A DNA stretch of 35,489 bases. Origin: Candidatus Woesearchaeota archaeon (GTDB taxonomy: Archaea; Nanobdellota; Nanobdellia; SCGC-AAA011-G17; GW2011-AR18). The DNA lies in assembly GCA_018302105.1 (NCBI GenBank), contig JAGWAD010000016.1:1-35489 (forward strand), read 5' to 3'. The notes under the pieces are model-generated. The model worked only from the letters and a program-made list of their open reading frames with translations. It was not told where the DNA came from and ran no database searches. Within the stretch, counting starts at the first letter, position 1. Every line of letters begins with the position of its first letter. Shown one piece after another: positions 6,551-31,353 of the stretch. A program made the position numbers and the translations under genes.

Positions 6551-7750
6551 ATGTTAAAGATTAGAAGCCCGTGGATTCAGGATATTAAGATAAAAGCTTT
6601 AAACTTAGTAGACAAAGAATATACTGGGAATACTCCTCCAACTGTTTTTGTAGGTAGCAAATTTGCAGATTTAAATAAAGCAAATGTGGGAATATTAAGC
6701 CCCTTGGAAAACAAAGAGGAAGCATGGAAATATGATGACCCATATCATTGGTACAATAATAATTACAATATAAATAAAATTATTGAATTAAGAGCCAATT
6801 TAATTAATGCAAGAAAAAATTTTTCTATTTTCGAAGTTAGAAACAGCAATAAATTTTTAGATTTGGCACAAGAAATAGCAATGAGCTTTAAACCAAGCAC
6901 AATTGAGGTTGAACTTGAAAAAAAGTTAAAAGCTAAAATAAATTTAGATAATATTCATTTACCATTTGGTCCTGGAGGAGAAGCTAAGAAAATAGAAGCA
7001 ACTGAAAATATAAAGGTTAATCAGAAAATTGAGAAAGTTTATTATGATACTGATTTGAAATCGGCTGAGGCTATTATTGATCTTAATAAAATTGGAATTC
7101 CGGAATATAAATTAAGTCAAATTCTAAGTATTGGAATTACTGGGCTTAAGTATAATCGTAAACTTGTTCCGACTCGATGGTCTATAACTGCAACTGATGA
7201 TATTTTAGGTAAAAATTTAATAAAAGAAATAAAAAATTATAATACAATTAGCAATTACAGGATTTTATTTGGTAATTATTTTGGAAATTATTATCTAATA
7301 TTTTTATTTCCTGATGCTTGGAGCTATGAATTATTTGAAAGTTCAATGCCTGACCAACTACCGAATATAGATCATGAGATTTATACTATGACTGATTATG
7401 AGAATTATTATGGAAGAAAAACATATGCAGATAACACTGTTGGCGGATATTATGCTGCAAGGTTAAGTTTACTAGAATATCTAAGAGATAATAAAATACA
7501 AGCTTCTGCATTATTATTAAGGTTTGTAACTTCAGAATATAGTGCCCCTTTAGGAGTTTTTGTTGTAAGGCAGGCTGTAAGGAAAACTATAAGTTCACAA
7601 ATATTTTATTTTAATGATAAAAAAATCATGTTAGAATTTGGGAAAAATTTAATTTTAAGAAAATTTGGATATAATGTTGATAATTTATTGAAAAAGAGTA
7701 TTTTATTAAATAATATTAATAAACAAAGAAAGATATTTGAATTTACTTAA
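6551..7750 (+). CDS. nreA: NreA-type archaeal DNA repair protein, without N-terminal zinc finger
   Basis: The 399-residue protein follows the Nre family closely: TPPTVFVGSKF (28-38), a DPYHWYN motif, QEIAMSFKP (107-115), DLKSAEAI, KLVPTRWSITATDD (204-217), YGRKTYA, GGYYAARLSLLEYL (298-311) and PLGVFVVRQAVR (333-344). NreA proteins act in DNA damage repair in archaea and bind the PCNA sliding clamp through a C-terminal PIP motif. Here the last residues QRKIFEFT keep Q, I and F at PIP positions 1, 4 and 7 but lack the second aromatic. The usual N-terminal cysteine zinc finger is absent; the protein begins only ~27 residues before the TPP motif, and the TATA box position supports that start. Loss or divergence of both terminal contact motifs is unusual. 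Confidence 0.88.
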   Translation: MLKIRSPWIQDIKIKALNLVDKEYTGNTPPTVFVGSKFADLNKANVGILSPLENKEEAWKYDDPYHWYNNNYNINKIIELRANLINARKNFSIFEVRNSNKFLDLAQEIAMSFKPSTIEVELEKKLKAKINLDNIHLPFGPGGEAKKIEATENIKVNQKIEKVYYDTDLKSAEAIIDLNKIGIPEYKLSQILSIGITGLKYNRKLVPTRWSITATDDILGKNLIKEIKNYNTISNYRILFGNYFGNYYLIFLFPDAWSYELFESSMPDQLPNIDHEIYTMTDYENYYGRKTYADNTVGGYYAARLSLLEYLRDNKIQASALLLRFVTSEYSAPLGVFVVRQAVRKTISSQIFYFNDKKIMLEFGKNLILRKFGYNVDNLLKKSILLNNINKQRKIFEFT

Positions 7751-12615: not shown

Positions 12616-13608
12616 CTAATGATTTTTAGATTTTATAGTTAGAAGGTTGTTTAATTGTATTATTTTTTCCATAAACTCATTAGAAGTTAAGCCTAAATGT
12701 TTTGCAGATTTAATGAAATCAGATTCTATAGCTAAATAAGGATTAGGATTTATTTCCAAAACATAAGCTGTATTATCTGCATACCTTATATCCATAGTTG
12801 CATAACCCGCACTATTCAACCTTGAAAATATCAATTTAGCTGTTTCTTTTATCTTATTATCCAACTCAGGCTCTAGATCTTTAACTCTTGAATAAGTATT
12901 TTTGAAAGCATTTGTGTTTCTGCTCCATTTTGCTTTATATGATAATATTTTAGGTTTATTTTCAAAATGTTCTGAAAAATCAATTTCTAAAATTGGAAAA
13001 GTTTCAACTTCTCCTTTATTGAACACAATAGGGACACAAAACTCTCTCCCATCTATATACTGTTCTATAAAAACCTTGTCAAATTTTTTGAAAATTTCTG
13101 ATAATTTCCTATTTAATTCTACTTCGTTATAAACTACTGAGTCTTCATCAATACCAAGAGAAGCGTCTGTTGCTGCAGGTTTAATTATTATTGGATAGCT
13201 CAAATTAGCAGGAATTTTCATATTTTGGCCTATTAAATGATATGAAGGGGTTTCAACACCGCAATTTTGAAAGAATTCCTTTGCTTTTGGCTTGTCTGTA
13301 AACAAATAATGTATTTTTCTATTGCAACCACTGAATGGAATGCCTAATTTATCTAATTTTTCAAATAACTGGTCATATTCTTCTATGTCATCAATACCAT
13401 CTGCACCATTAAAAATGAAATCATAATCTGCTTTTTTTATTTCTTTTACAAAATTTTCAGAATATTCAATTAGTTCAACTTCATGATTGTTAGATCTAAT
13501 TCTATCTGCTAAGTACTTATCTGCAGTGCATATTTCTTTCTGAACAACTGCAAGCCCATGAATGTCCTGAATTATTTCTTCCGGACAATAAAGATATCCT
13601 ATACGCAT
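12616..13608 (-). CDS. ATP-grasp ligase of the D-alanine-D-alanine ligase type
   Basis: The 330-residue enzyme has an N-terminal Rossmann-like domain (VELIEYSENF, DYDFIFNGADG), a SGCNRKIHYLFTDKPKAKEF linker, the ATP-grasp strand PIIIKPAATDASLGI (139-153), the adenine-contact EQYIDGREF (182-190) and the Mg2+ site DIRYADNTAYVLEINPNPYL near residue 290. These are the marks of Ddl-like ATP-grasp enzymes, which join two small carboxylate/amine substrates with ATP. Archaea generally lack murein, so the product may be another dipeptide or amide; strict D-Ala specificity cannot be read. Two L,D-transpeptidases, also murein-type enzymes, lie elsewhere in the window. The start has TATA-like AT tracts upstream in the gene-free region. 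Confidence 0.82.
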   Translation of the reverse strand: MRIGYLYCPEEIIQDIHGLAVVQKEICTADKYLADRIRSNNHEVELIEYSENFVKEIKKADYDFIFNGADGIDDIEEYDQLFEKLDKLGIPFSGCNRKIHYLFTDKPKAKEFFQNCGVETPSYHLIGQNMKIPANLSYPIIIKPAATDASLGIDEDSVVYNEVELNRKLSEIFKKFDKVFIEQYIDGREFCVPIVFNKGEVETFPILEIDFSEHFENKPKILSYKAKWSRNTNAFKNTYSRVKDLEPELDNKIKETAKLIFSRLNSAGYATMDIRYADNTAYVLEINPNPYLAIESDFIKSAKHLGLTSNEFMEKIIQLNNLLTIKSKNH

Positions 13609-24269: not shown

Positions 24270-25985
24270 TTATCTTCTTCTAAATAAGCTTACTAATAAA
24301 ACAATAATTCCCAATGCTAAGATTATATAAGCTAATACCCATATAGCTGTTGGAATTTTAGTAATACCAGTATCCCAGAATGATTTATCAGTTACTGTTG
24401 CACCAGTATAAGTTGGCTGACTTGTTCCTACAGGTACTGTTCCAGTAGAACCTGAATCGTTAGGCTGGTTTGCTTGATCCCCTGCAGGTTGTCCACTTGG
24501 TTGACTAGGCTGAGTGCCACAATTTGTTACTGCTAATGTTAATTGTTCTGTTTTAACTTCTCCACTATATCTGGCTGTAACAGTTAAAGGATAATTTCCA
24601 TTCTGTACATTTGAAGGAACTCGAAACATTACTGAAGTTGACTGAACATTATCATCATCATTTCTGTCTTCAGACAAGCTTAAACCTTCTGATAATTGTG
24701 ATATTCCTAAAGCTGCATTTTCTACATTAACAGTTACTCTCTGATCTTCTGATCCGATGTTTCTTAATACTGCATTTACAGAAGCAGTTCCACCACAACT
24801 TACTGCAGTTGGATTTAATGTCAATGAATCAAATTCTACAGCGTTTTCTGGAATTTCTAAATTTAAATCAATTGAATCTTCAACACAAATTGTGTCTTCT
24901 TTTCCTTTTTCAAATGCTTTAATGTATAATCTTAATTCTGTATCTTCATCAAAATCTTCCCCAGCTAAAGGAAATTCAAAAAATACTGAACCTTCATCAT
25001 TATTATTTATTCTTTTTTCTGTTGTATCACTGTCTACTCTTTTACCTTCATCTAAATTGTATAATAAAGCTTGAACTCTTATTCTTTTGTCATCACTTGC
25101 ATCGTTTGTAATATCAACTCTAACCTGCATATCATCTCCAGGCTGGAAATCCTGATCATCTTCAGGTTCTTCAATATTTATTTTTAAATTGTTTGATAAA
25201 GCAGAAGCCTTGCATGTTAAAGGAGTAACTTCAATTTTTGCCGGCAATGTCTTTTTTATCATTTCATTTGCTTCAACTGCTAAATTACCAGATAAATCTT
25301 CAACATCGAAACCTGATTGTATTGTTGCAGTTAATTCAAAATTAGCTGTTGATCCAATAGTTAACGAGTTTAATGTTGCTGGATTTAATCTTAATGTTAT
25401 TGTATCATCATCGTCATCTGTTAAATCTGAAAATTCTGTAGTTAAACGTATATTTGACAGGTCAACATTACCTGCGTTTTTAATTGTTAATGGCAATCTT
25501 ACTATTTCTTCACCAGGCTGTCCTGTTATTTTAATTTCTGATAAAACTGATCCTGATTGTAATATTTCAAAAGCTGGAGAAGCAACTACTGTTACTGCTT
25601 TATTAACTGTAACTATATTTTCTTCATTGTCTAAATTTTTAACTTTTAAATTTAATGTATAAGCTCCAGGTTTAGAACTTCTTGGAAAATTAAATGTTAA
25701 TGTTGCAGTTTTTGTCTGGTTTGATTCAATATTTATCAAAGTTGCTGATATTTCCGACACTTGTGATGGGCCTGAAACTACTCCTGCGATTTCTACTACA
25801 GAAACTGCATCTGCTCCTGTATTTAATATGTTTAATGTTACTGTAACAGGCACAGAATTACTACTTGTAAATTCTATTGCTACAGGTGTATGTGAAGAAC
25901 TTGCAATCCTTAAATCTGCAAATACACTAAAAGAAAGTATTACCAAAAATAATAAAATTGTCAACAATAATTTATTTGTTTTCAT
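24270..25985 (-). CDS. Large cell-surface protein with CARDB/COG1361-like domains and C-terminal membrane anchor
   Basis: The 571-residue protein has a signal peptide (KLLLTILLFLVILSFSVFA, 5-23). Then come several beta domains of the COG1361/CARDB kind, seen by repeated patterns such as TLNILNTGADAVSVVEI, LPLTIKNAGNVDLSNIRL, VDITNDASDDKRIRVQA and VNAVLRNIGSEDQRVTV. An acidic, cysteine-containing middle follows, then a Gly/Ser/Pro/Gln-rich linker (~490-535, with SQPSGQPAGDQANQPNDSG) and the membrane helix IPTAIWVLAYIILALGIIVL capped by FRRR. The surface of many DPANN cells is covered by such proteins. The end (linker, helix, basic tail) has the layout of a sorting signal, and an archaeosortase gene lies about 5 kb downstream. 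Codon use matches the neighbours. Confidence 0.85.
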   Translation of the reverse strand: MKTNKLLLTILLFLVILSFSVFADLRIASSSHTPVAIEFTSSNSVPVTVTLNILNTGADAVSVVEIAGVVSGPSQVSEISATLINIESNQTKTATLTFNFPRSSKPGAYTLNLKVKNLDNEENIVTVNKAVTVVASPAFEILQSGSVLSEIKITGQPGEEIVRLPLTIKNAGNVDLSNIRLTTEFSDLTDDDDDTITLRLNPATLNSLTIGSTANFELTATIQSGFDVEDLSGNLAVEANEMIKKTLPAKIEVTPLTCKASALSNNLKINIEEPEDDQDFQPGDDMQVRVDITNDASDDKRIRVQALLYNLDEGKRVDSDTTEKRINNNDEGSVFFEFPLAGEDFDEDTELRLYIKAFEKGKEDTICVEDSIDLNLEIPENAVEFDSLTLNPTAVSCGGTASVNAVLRNIGSEDQRVTVNVENAALGISQLSEGLSLSEDRNDDDNVQSTSVMFRVPSNVQNGNYPLTVTARYSGEVKTEQLTLAVTNCGTQPSQPSGQPAGDQANQPNDSGSTGTVPVGTSQPTYTGATVTDKSFWDTGITKIPTAIWVLAYIILALGIIVLLVSLFRRR

Positions 25986-26105: not shown

Positions 26106-26702
26106 ATGAAAAAGACAATGCTATATCTTTTAATAACCTTAACTTTAGCAAGCTGCAAGCCTGCAAGATTAGAAGAAAATGTAGAAGCTGCAGAACAAAA
26201 TAACAAGCCTTATTTATTAGTGTCTAAATTTTATGATAATATTACGTTTTATAACGGTTTAGGCGAAACTTATTCTTTTGACGCTGCTTTTGGCATTTTA
26301 AGCAGATTAGGGACAAAAAAAGAAAGAGGGGACAAAAAAACTCCAGAAGGGGAATATTATATCTGTGATAAAAGACCAAGTTCATCTGGATTTAATAAAT
26401 TTATGCAAATTAACTATCCAAATCCACAAGATGCGAAAAGAGGCTTAGAACAAGGACTTATTAATGAATACCAATATGATTCAATCAGGTTTGCACATAG
26501 AAAAGGAATTTGTCCACCTTCTAACACTAATTTAGGAGGAAACATAGGAATACATGGTGAAAAACATATTAAAATTGGTAAATTGACTTTCAAAATAGGA
26601 AGTTTTGTTGACTGGACAGAGGGATGTATTGCAATTGACAATCCAAACATAGAAATTCTCTATAGACGCGTTCCTGAAAATACTCCAATAACTATTGAAT
26701 AG
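26106..26702 (+). CDS. L,D-transpeptidase (YkuD-like), lipoprotein
   Basis: The 198-residue protein begins with a signal peptide ending in a lipobox, TLTLASC (Cys17), so it should be lipid-anchored outside the cell. The YkuD domain shows SRLGTKKERGDKKTPEGEYY, then GGNIGIHG with H150-G151 and the catalytic WTEGCIAIDN with Cys174. In bacteria, this cysteine forms a thioacyl intermediate and joins murein peptides or attaches lipoproteins to them. Here the usual SHGC motif is replaced by TEGC, as in some YafK-like members. It is convergent with a second L,D-transpeptidase, just four bases apart. The presence of such enzymes in an archaeal genome is unusual and suggests transfer from bacteria. Confidence 0.87.
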   Translation: MKKTMLYLLITLTLASCKPARLEENVEAAEQNNKPYLLVSKFYDNITFYNGLGETYSFDAAFGILSRLGTKKERGDKKTPEGEYYICDKRPSSSGFNKFMQINYPNPQDAKRGLEQGLINEYQYDSIRFAHRKGICPPSNTNLGGNIGIHGEKHIKIGKLTFKIGSFVDWTEGCIAIDNPNIEILYRRVPENTPITIE

Positions 26703-26705
26703 AAA

Positions 26706-28076
26706 CTAAGCATTTGGATAATTATTATATCTATGAACAATAAAAAATATATCGCCTTTTTTTGATATAAAAATAATATCCTTAAGAACTTCTATGTCTG
26801 ATGGACTCATATGAATGCATCCGTGGGATATTGGCTGCATAAGATTCCCAATGTCTTTTGGAGCAAGCTGTGTAAATTCTCCTAAAATATTTGTATGTAT
26901 TTTTTCAGGAGAAACTTTTTCATTTTCATTTTTATATTCAATTGCCAAATGACCAAATGGATTTAAGTACCACTTACTTAATAATACTCCACCTATGTAA
27001 AAATCACTTTTTTTAAGGCCATTAACTTTAGCTTTTGGTCCTGTAACAAAGAACCATGTTTTGCCTTCATTTTCACTGACTTCAATTTGATCATTATTTT
27101 CTCTAATTGATGCCCCAAATTTTATTCTTGCATAGTTCCAACTACTATCTCTTTTTACATATGGACTTATATTATCGCGAAGAATTATGAATTTCCCTGA
27201 ATGTGTTGGTCCATAACTATGCCCTGGATTAACATTATCTTTATATCTTTCTTGTGGTCCGCCTCTAGCAGTCAATTCTATTAATGAGTATCCTGTTACA
27301 GCATCATAAACAATCATTTGTCTTGTGCCTGGAAAAAAATGTACTTCTATGCCATGCAACTGTGCTAATCTTAAAATATCAGGAGATAATTTTTTTTCTT
27401 TTAGATGTTCCATATAAGTTTGCATTACGGCACTATAACCTACTGCAGGCCTTATCATATTCATTTTCATGCCAACTCCAGCCAATGAAGCAACTAATGC
27501 AGCGCTAACTGTTAACTTTTTTAATTTTGATTTTCCTAATTTTTTACCTTTTTTATTCATAAATATTCCACACAAAATGGGATTTTGCCCAGATACTGCG
27601 TCATTTAAATCATCTAATATACTAACAATTATGGTTTTTAATTTTGACATTAATTGTTTATGCTTTGAAATTAAATCATCACTTATATGGGTATTATTCC
27701 TAATTAACTTTCTTATATTCAATAAATTATTAAATAAATTATTCAAATTTGCATTAATTTTTTGCAATGTCGGAATAAAACCATTGTCCTTATTATATAA
27801 TGAATTATTTTGAAGTTCGGTTGATGCAAATTCTTTATTCACTATGAACCCTTCTTGTATTAATGTTTCTCTGTTAAATAATTTGTAAGATATCTTATTT
27901 ATTAATACATTAATTGCTGACTTTAAATTTAATTCTACTGAATTTATTTCATCATCATTGTTATTTCCCATTTCATTTAATGATGCGAGAAGAAAATTAA
28001 GCTTTTCAATAATTTCATTTAATCTTGCAAATTCTTTTAGAATCTTTTTTCTTTTAGAAAAAACCAACCAGCTCAT
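26706..28076 (-). CDS. L,D-transpeptidase domain protein with coiled-coil N-terminus and internal membrane helix
   Basis: The 456-residue protein has a long helical N-terminal region (~1-180, many N/L/K heptads, RLNEIIEKLNFLLASLNEMG) and one membrane helix at about 186-206 (LTVSAALVASLAGVGMKMNM). The C-terminal YkuD domain contains NPFGHLAIEY, IHTNILGEF and the canonical catalytic PISHGCIHMSP with C420. This catalytic part would be outside the cell. L,D-transpeptidases link peptide side chains in bacterial murein. Its 3' end meets the other L,D-transpeptidase gene tail to tail. Its start is only 45 bases from the insertion sequence; a TATA-like CTTAAATATT remains in between. Confidence 0.88.
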   Translation of the reverse strand: MSWLVFSKRKKILKEFARLNEIIEKLNFLLASLNEMGNNNDDEINSVELNLKSAINVLINKISYKLFNRETLIQEGFIVNKEFASTELQNNSLYNKDNGFIPTLQKINANLNNLFNNLLNIRKLIRNNTHISDDLISKHKQLMSKLKTIIVSILDDLNDAVSGQNPILCGIFMNKKGKKLGKSKLKKLTVSAALVASLAGVGMKMNMIRPAVGYSAVMQTYMEHLKEKKLSPDILRLAQLHGIEVHFFPGTRQMIVYDAVTGYSLIELTARGGPQERYKDNVNPGHSYGPTHSGKFIILRDNISPYVKRDSSWNYARIKFGASIRENNDQIEVSENEGKTWFFVTGPKAKVNGLKKSDFYIGGVLLSKWYLNPFGHLAIEYKNENEKVSPEKIHTNILGEFTQLAPKDIGNLMQPISHGCIHMSPSDIEVLKDIIFISKKGDIFFIVHRYNNYPNA

Positions 28077-29131: not shown

Positions 29132-29671
29132 TTATGTTAAATTAAATTGTTTTTTGTATTCTAATTTTGAAATTATCAATCCAAGTATATATCCTAAAAA
29201 AGCACCAGCAATAATATCTGAAAGATAGTGCACTCCCAAGTATAATCTGGAGAAAACTATAAGGCAAGCGAATGATAAAAAGTACCATTTAAACTTAGGA
29301 AAATTCTTATTAATCAGATATAAAGGTGTAAAAGCTATTGCTGCGTGCCTGCTTGGAAATGAGTTACCTGCAGAATAAATTAAATAATCTACTTCTGGTC
29401 TTGGTCTTGGAATGCTGAATTTTAATAGTTCAATTAATAAAAAAACAATAATAAAGCTTAACCACAATAATGGAATTAATTTTAGTTTTTTCTTATATAA
29501 TAATATAAATGTTGAAAATAAGAAAATTATATACGGGCCAAAGTCTGTTAAGAAAATGAATATATAATTTAAATAGGATATTCTATAATGTATTATAAAA
29601 TTTAAAATTCTTGAATCAAATAATAATGATAAACCTAATAATACTATAATTACTGAAATTAGTCTTTTCAT
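29132..29671 (-). CDS. PAP2-family membrane phosphatase
   Basis: The 179-residue protein has five or six membrane helices and the full PAP2 signature: K84-x5-R89-P90 (KFSIPRPRP), the PSRH box at 106-109 (SFPSRH), and S141-R142-x5-H148-x3-D152 (SRLYLGVHYLSD). Such phosphatases remove phosphate from lipids such as phosphatidic acid or polyprenyl diphosphates on the membrane surface; in archaea dolichyl-type carriers are plausible. It follows the DedA gene by three bases on the same strand and forms an operon with it. The stop is three bases before the insertion sequence, which left it intact. Confidence 0.93.
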   Translation of the reverse strand: MKRLISVIIVLLGLSLLFDSRILNFIIHYRISYLNYIFIFLTDFGPYIIFLFSTFILLYKKKLKLIPLLWLSFIIVFLLIELLKFSIPRPRPEVDYLIYSAGNSFPSRHAAIAFTPLYLINKNFPKFKWYFLSFACLIVFSRLYLGVHYLSDIIAGAFLGYILGLIISKLEYKKQFNLT

Positions 29672-29674
29672 ATA

Positions 29675-30301
29675 TTAAGAGGATTTATATTCCTTATAAT
29701 TTTTGTGTTTAATGTGCCTGTAAACATGGAATATTATTACTAATACTAATAAGATTATAATAATAATATCTAGTTCTCTTGAATATTCATGCAGCAAATA
29801 CCATTTTTGCTTTAAAGCATAGCCTGCATATGCCAATGCCATATTCCAGATTGAAGCGCCGATAAAAGTATAGATAATAAATTTTTTTAAATCCATTTTT
29901 GCCATTCCTGCAGGTATTGAAATTATATGCCTTATAACTGGGATAAATCTTGAAATAAAAATTGTTTTTTGCCCATTTTTCTTAAACCAGTTTTCTGTCC
30001 ATTCTAAATCCTTATTATTAAGTAAAAAATATTTTCCATATTTCGGAATAATTGTTTTGCTTCCAACTGAACCTATATAATAAGAAATTAAAGATCCAAC
30101 TACTGAACCTAAGCTACTTGCTATAAATACAATAAAAAATGAAAATTTGTTTTCTGCTATTAGAAATCCTGCAAATGGCATTATTGCTTCACTTGGTACT
30201 GGCAGAACCATACTTTCTGCAACCATAAATAAAAAGATTCCAAAATAACCTGTTGCTGCAATTATAGTCGTTATCCAAATAGTTAAATATTCTAATATCA
30301 T
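29675..30301 (-). CDS. DedA family (SNARE-associated/VTT domain) membrane protein
   Basis: The 208-residue membrane protein carries the DedA signature: an N-terminal re-entrant segment MVAESMVLPVPSEAIMPFAG, the SLGSVVGSLISYYIGSVGSK helix, and FISRFIPVIRHIISIPAGMA with the conserved R-x-x-P-x-x-R pattern. DedA proteins are thought to flip or help recycle lipid carriers; several bacterial members transport undecaprenyl phosphate. The pairing with a PAP2 phosphatase fits a shared role in polyprenyl-phosphate recycling. It is the first gene of the two-gene operon. The C-terminus ends with a basic HKNYKEYKSS tail. Confidence 0.92.
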   Translation of the reverse strand: MILEYLTIWITTIIAATGYFGIFLFMVAESMVLPVPSEAIMPFAGFLIAENKFSFFIVFIASSLGSVVGSLISYYIGSVGSKTIIPKYGKYFLLNNKDLEWTENWFKKNGQKTIFISRFIPVIRHIISIPAGMAKMDLKKFIIYTFIGASIWNMALAYAGYALKQKWYLLHEYSRELDIIIIILLVLVIIFHVYRHIKHKNYKEYKSS

Positions 30302-30840: not shown

Positions 30841-31353
30841 ATGAAATATTTGTATAATTTTTTAATAAGATATTTATTGCTGTTTATTCCTATAAGTTTA
30901 ATATATTTTATTTTTTCTCCAATAACAATTTATGGTTCTTATTATTTAATATATTTTTTAAAACCATCAATTATTGGCAATATAATAACTGTTAATGGTA
31001 TTCCATTTACTTTTATTGATGCCTGCATAGCTGCTTATGCTTATTATTTAATCTGGTTTTTATCATTAACTGCAAAAGATGTTAAAATAAAGACTAGAGT
31101 AAAACTAATTTTAATTGGATTTTTATTGATATTATTAATGAACTATTTCAGAATTTCCTTATTAATTTATCTAACTGTAAAATATGGATTTGATGCTTTT
31201 AATATTGTCCATATGTTTTTCTGGAAATTTTTATCATGGTTTTATGTTGCTTTAGTTTGGATAATACTTGTTAAATTTTATAGGGTAAAAAGTATCCCAC
31301 TTTATGATGATTTTAAGTATTTGTGGAAAAAAAGTTTGTTTAAGAAAAAATAA
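30841..31353 (+). CDS. Archaeosortase/exosortase family transpeptidase (Pacearchaeota type)
   Basis: The 170-residue membrane protein has four to five helices and the triad of the exosortase/archaeosortase superfamily: C62 in DACIAAYAYYLIWFL, R104 in LMNYFRISLLIYL and H124 in IVHMFFWKFLSWFY. These enzymes cut C-terminal sorting tails of surface proteins and can pass the new end to a lipid or other anchor. The small size and sequence agree with my memory of the group called pacearchaeosortase. A candidate substrate in the window is the large surface protein at 24270-25985. The protein ends in a basic cytoplasmic tail (WKKSLFKKK). Confidence 0.82.
   Translation: MKYLYNFLIRYLLLFIPISLIYFIFSPITIYGSYYLIYFLKPSIIGNIITVNGIPFTFIDACIAAYAYYLIWFLSLTAKDVKIKTRVKLILIGFLLILLMNYFRISLLIYLTVKYGFDAFNIVHMFFWKFLSWFYVALVWIILVKFYRVKSIPLYDDFKYLWKKSLFKKK

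Follow-up and report, generated by a model that had tools for sequence, protein, structure and literature searches.

Convergent YkuD-domain genes beside an S-layer gene in a Woesearchaeota genome: candidate enzymes for editing bacterial murein

A convergent YkuD pair on an archaeal contig

The presence of two adjoining YkuD-domain genes on a contig assigned to an archaeon raised the question of whether these genes are archaeal at all and, if so, what their products would act on in an organism that makes no murein. The window analyzed here, 35,489 nt in length, is an entire contig (C32) of a 1.15-Mb genome with 98.3% completeness and 0.45% contamination. In agreement with the initial annotation, which had taken the genome to be archaeal, the contig encodes an archaeal-type LeuRS (1070 bits), an archaeal L1, an L10 with the archaeal L10P insertion, a pacearchaeosortase and a PACE-CTERM S-layer protein. 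It is also co-linear with a 186-kb contig from a different genus of the same family (G196:C20), with identities of 74% for LeuRS, 63% for L1 and 33% for the S-layer protein. Because of these archaeal informational genes, the synteny with G196 and the low contamination, we concluded that the contig is archaeal, and ruled out a bacterial or contaminating origin.

The two genes, P0001 (26106..26702, + strand) and P0002 (26706..28076, − strand), converge across a gap of 3 bp (26703-26705), one base shorter than the four first reported. Both are real and retain their catalytic residues, and the cysteines described earlier within TEGC and SHGC were identified as C174 of P0001 and C420 of P0002. The lipobox and membrane helix, one on each protein, were likewise located, as LASC in P0001 and as a hydrophobic stretch at residues 188-204 of P0002. 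The adjoining surface protein and the surrounding envelope gene block also held up on closer examination: a putative S-layer gene (PACE-CTERM, NF033506) occupies 24270..25985 (− strand; 152.8 bits, cut-off 110), and the gene for a pacearchaeosortase (NF033505), an exosortase-like enzyme, occupies 30841..31353 (+ strand; 125 bits, cut-off 80).

Other genes in the window touch on envelope chemistry. A DedA-type protein similar to UptA, an undecaprenyl-phosphate transporter (29132-30301, − strand; 152.6 bits, cut-off 250), adjoins a PAP2 lipid phosphatase, and these genes probably serve the recycling of an archaeal polyprenyl carrier. An ATP-grasp ligase related to D-Ala-D-Ala ligase (12616-13608, − strand) reached 121 bits (cut-off 243); since it falls far under every Ddl cut-off, we did not take it as evidence for murein.

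Domains and class of the two proteins

P0001 runs from an ATG at 26106 to a stop codon at 26700-26702 and encodes 198 aa. Its YkuD domain scored 55 bits for PF03734, above the curated cut-off of 23.4, and its N-terminus, MKKTMLYLLITLTLASCKPAR, contains the bacterial-type lipobox LASC, for which the Pfam model LPAM_1 gave a sub-threshold match (15.6 bits against 20, E = 0.022). Translation and alignment placed the codon of the catalytic Cys174 at 26625..26627 (within DWTEGCIAI, with Ala at Cys+2), that of His150 at 26553-26555 and that of Lys71 at 26316-26318, all on the + strand, and the three residues were invariant in an alignment of six DPANN relatives. When the profile of these six relatives was compared with the PDB, the closest matches were DpaA (2.9e-10), Bd1075 (1e-9), Pgp2 (3e-7) and Csd6 (1.1e-5), with the transpeptidase YkuD ranking after them (1.1e-4). 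An AF2 model of P0001 (pLDDT 81) gave Bd1075 as its best fold match by E-value (8.7e-8), and DpaA had the highest query-normalised TM-score among the matches listed (0.55).

The active site pointed in the same direction. Lys71 falls in the column of DpaA Lys83 and is invariant in the DPANN alignment; the residue numbers of the 8IKR chain were converted to DpaA numbering with an offset of 18, confirmed by Cys143 and Ala145. Replacement of Lys83 with alanine inactivates DpaA, and most LD-transpeptidases have Arg at Cys+2 (PMC8938487), a position taken by Ala176 in P0001 and His422 in P0002. With closer matches to DpaA and its kin, a Lys83-type lysine and Ala at Cys+2, P0001 fits the DpaA/LD-carboxypeptidase branch as described in PMC10653827 and PMC8938487, and it falls outside the DpaA equivalog itself (NF040599; 26.6 bits, cut-off 365). 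By sequence and modelled fold, P0001 thus belongs to the hydrolytic YkuD branch that includes DpaA, Csd6, Pgp2 and Bd1075, a placement that makes it probably a hydrolase (peptidase or amidase) rather than a transpeptidase. The name L,D-transpeptidase, used for it in the initial annotation, is therefore not supported.

P0002 is a membrane protein of 456 aa with three predicted parts. The N-terminal helical domain (residues 1-185; 27522..28076, − strand) belongs to a stretch, residues 5-230, with 28% identity (E = 5.7e-22) to a protein of G196, and is followed by a membrane helix (residues 188-204; 27465..27515, − strand; Kyte-Doolittle mean 1.54 over 17 residues). Because a basic patch lies before the helix, the N-terminus is predicted to be cytoplasmic. 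The YkuD catalytic region (residues 240-456; 26709..27359, − strand) matches the YkuD profile and is 46% identical to a relative in G131; it contains His394 (codon 26895-26897) and an SHGCIHM box with Cys420 (codon 26817-26819), both read from the − strand. P0002 itself lies under the curated PF03734 cut-off (17.8 bits against 23.4), and its G131 relative scored 22.8 bits, or 26.8 with in-frame neighbours. A profile of P0002 and one relative, aligned with 14 DPANN YkuD domains using hhalign, gave 95% probability (E = 1.8e-8), with SHGC falling on SHGC, and from these alignments we assign the C-terminal domain to YkuD as a divergent member. The structure model reached a pLDDT of 39, few homologues being available. 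With His422 in place of the hydrolase-type Ala or the transpeptidase Arg, P0002 may act by hydrolysis or by exchange or transpeptidation.

Wall enzymes, murein capacity and distribution

Family searches of the whole genome, made for named families, returned no match for Mur_ligase_M or for the PBP transpeptidase in this 98.3% complete assembly. Because Mur ligases and PBPs are absent, we concluded from gene content that the archaeon does not synthesize murein, and we rejected a wall of its own murein, or of pseudomurein made by Mur ligases. The same check, suggested earlier for murein genes elsewhere in the genome, did reveal lytic enzymes, namely three SLT (GH23) lytic-transglycosylase proteins encoded on contigs other than that of the YkuD pair. 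One combines SLT with M23 (GSHLHFEV) and TPR (G000:C6); another combines SLT with a C-terminal Amidase_2 match of 24 bits against 26, clipped by the contig end (G000:C14); the third (C31) combines SLT with an N-terminus that is signal-like and a helix at the C-terminus. No PG_binding_1 domain was found in the genome.

Across 281 genomes of the class, SLT occurred in 117 and YkuD in 36, and 26 of these 36 carried both (odds ratio 4.4, p = 1e-4, kinship ignored). All six genomes with a P0001-type gene encoded SLT and none a Mur ligase. Mur_ligase_M was present in 26 genomes of the class, as a single copy in each, so that no class genome shows the four ligases of the murein pathway.

Beside the SLT/amidase-like gene on C14 (L133:3-1706) lie, up to position 6956, genes for small proteins with hydrophobic N-termini that look pilin-like, and a nearby 720-aa membrane protein looks TadC-like by eye, with no Pfam match. 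The C14 wall enzymes are possibly tied to a pilus-like machine.

The PBP transpeptidase domain was detected in eight of the 281 genomes. Six of these PBPs were examined, and all were class A bifunctional proteins with GT51 and transpeptidase domains (L138:4838-7297 in G196, L139:3627-6131 in G081, L140:4149-6788 in G238, L141:6812-8803, L142:4964-7204 and L143:5072-7450). In the sister genera G081, G196 and G238 an archease gene is found close to the PBP gene, which keeps SxxK, SxN and KTG. No Mur ligase match was found in the PBP-bearing G081, G196, G238 and G040, and none of the eight PBP-bearing genomes encoded YkuD.

Members of the P0001 family are widespread among bacteria. In a tree with long branches, for which the bacterial sample was chosen by one conserved pattern, seven archaeal P0001-type sequences clustered outside the bacterial sequences, and a single archaeal clade was not rejected (p-AU 0.65, with row L067 left out). 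That row, a P0001 relative from Ignavibacteria (L067:3791-4414) adjoining ribosomal and outer-membrane assembly genes, has its catalytic Cys replaced by Ser (NWTDGSVAV); given this replacement (NWTDGS) and its long branch, Ignavibacterium was rejected as the donor. The P0002 catalytic domain occurred elsewhere only in G131, a distant relative, in overlapping draws of 281 and 371 genomes. In that genome a P0001-type gene is found 1.6 kb away. Were the two gene types distributed independently, such a pairing would have a chance of about 1e-4; joint transfer of both genes is another explanation for it. Phage or plasmid cargo was discarded as a source, no relatives of the P0002 domain being found in phages, plasmids or viral contigs; searches for P0001 relatives in phages were likewise negative. 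None of nine other genomes of the same family encodes YkuD. In a Candidatus Pacearchaeota genome (L047), a P0001 relative converges with the gene for a protein of 809 aa that combines PG_binding_1 repeats with YkuD, beyond which lie a membrane protein and then a weak SLT match (E = 0.024).

Comparison with G196 indicated that the position beside the S-layer gene is exchangeable. At the place of P0002, G196 encodes a protein that shares the N-terminal domain and helix of P0002 (28% identity) and ends in a different C-terminal domain, for which no Pfam match was found; at the place of P0001 lies a convergent gene, overlapping by 6 bp, for an alpha/beta hydrolase that is putatively secreted. Because G196 keeps both the N-terminal domain and a convergent enzyme, we read the two genomes as sharing one architecture, in which the S-layer gene adjoins an enzyme-like protein with a membrane anchor and, convergent with it, a putative enzyme, the catalytic parts having been exchanged. 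The exchangeable enzymes at this position indicate where further contact enzymes may be sought. Elsewhere (L039, L040, L041, L042, L047 and L036), a family of membrane proteins that begin RGQVTIFI-like precede large secreted proteins, usually overlapping them, and P0001-type YkuD genes are convergent with or near these loci. Three of the large secreted proteins are mutually homologous, with no Pfam match, and that of L039 has a peptidase C25 match.

Possible roles and comparison with known systems

We consider it likely, judging from gene content, domain assignments and the co-occurrence of YkuD with SLT across the class, that P0001 and P0002 are surface enzymes that edit bacterial murein outside the archaeal cell. 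Because the archaeon makes no murein, the murein they act on would come from a bacterium living as its host, prey or competitor, and among the targets raised by the initial annotation a murein-less genome with SLT, M23 and amidase-like proteins favours a bacterial wall, whether of host or prey. P0001 would be exported, perhaps with a lipid anchor, and its most likely activity would be to hydrolyse stem peptides at their meso-diaminopimelate end, either as an L,D-carboxypeptidase or as a DpaA-like amidase cutting proteins off murein. P0002 would be anchored in the membrane of the archaeon, expose its YkuD domain to the exterior and act on the same stem peptides at the contact site. With the lytic transglycosylases acting on glycan strands, M23 on peptide bridges and the amidase-like domain separating stem from glycan, the combined set could cut or edit most murein bond types, so that exported wall enzymes would weaken and modify a bacterial neighbour's murein where the cells touch, be it for predation, nutrition, attachment or competition. 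Against this stand the lack of a PG_binding_1 match in the genome and the location of the other wall enzymes away from the YkuD contig, and the SLT-like domains of DPANN may act on something other than murein.

Related readings give the enzymes a constructive part. Since YkuD proteins here and bifunctional class A PBPs in three sister genera occur without Mur ligases, they would act on partner-made murein or lipid II, and the archaeal family might remodel or build with bacterial murein rather than merely digest it, for instance by sealing the contact site or by dressing its cells in borrowed murein; we regard this as doubtful. LdtA, LdtB and LdtC tie Lpp to murein, and one or both enzymes might similarly tie an archaeal surface protein, such as the S-layer protein, covalently to murein and so bond the archaeon to its host. 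The pair is situated between the S-layer gene and its sortase, P0001 relatives adjoin large secreted proteins in five other genomes, and P0002 is membrane-anchored with a His at Cys+2 of its SHGC box in place of the hydrolase-type Ala. However, P0001 carries hydrolase signatures, the S-layer gene occurs without YkuD in G196 and no acceptor motif was identified, and we judge such docking unlikely.

That the enzymes instead cross-link or trim a peptide polymer of the archaeon's own is, in our estimate, quite improbable. Their genes do lie within its own envelope block, in a window with a Ddl-like ATP-grasp ligase and polyprenyl-carrier genes, but the genome lacks Mur_ligase_M, a family that also covers pseudomurein ligases, the other family genomes surveyed have no YkuD and the Ddl-like score is low; nothing was found in support of the unknown archaeal polymer that had been proposed as a target. 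Similarly improbable is that these are recently acquired bacterial genes without a settled use, now being lost. The patchy distribution, the breadth of the P0001 family in bacteria and GC contents of 0.32 (P0001) and 0.28 (P0002) against 0.26 for the window would fit such an origin, but the neighbouring S-layer gene has a similar GC of 0.318, the archaeal P0001 sequences fall outside the sampled bacterial crown in a compatible single clade, the active sites are intact and the pair recurs in a distant family.

The editing of bacterial murein is the preferred reading. The gene complement suggests that this archaeon, itself without murein, breaches or reshapes the walls of nearby bacteria. The feature is real and coherent, and its putative enzymes bring new types to an existing hypothesis. 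DPANN life on bacteria is debated, with lytic transglycosylases as the main hint so far, and a murein-less archaeon with YkuD, M23, amidase-like and three SLT proteins makes the idea testable by simple enzymology.

Among known systems, DpaA (YafK/LdtF), Csd6, Pgp2 and Bd1075 share with P0001 the YkuD fold, the Lys83-type residue and Ala at Cys+2; these enzymes act on the producer's own murein, whereas P0001 sits in a murein-less archaeon. The type VI secretion effector Tlde1a (PMC9638812) is a YkuD enzyme used on the murein of another cell, but it is delivered by a bacterial injection machine, and we liken it to the pair by description. Also comparable by description are the LD-transpeptidases Bd0886 and Bd1176 of Bdellovibrio (PMC10482364), YkuD-type enzymes with which a predator alters the wall of a cell it has entered, although Bdellovibrio is a bacterial predator with its own murein. 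Pacearchaeota and Woesearchaeota have been suggested to attach to or attack bacteria, and the murein-like lytic transglycosylases described in DPANN (PMC8204110, PMC9723730) come from the same organism group and have an inferred bacterial-wall target. Some archaea are reported to make bacteria-killing peptidoglycan hydrolases (PMC12352652), which share the domain of life and have bacterial walls as their inferred target. The word "transpeptidase" is absent from the main texts of these three papers, and our literature searches, with partial coverage, returned no report of YkuD proteins in DPANN. The YkuD, M23 and amidase-like domains of the present genome extend the set of archaeal wall enzymes described in these papers.
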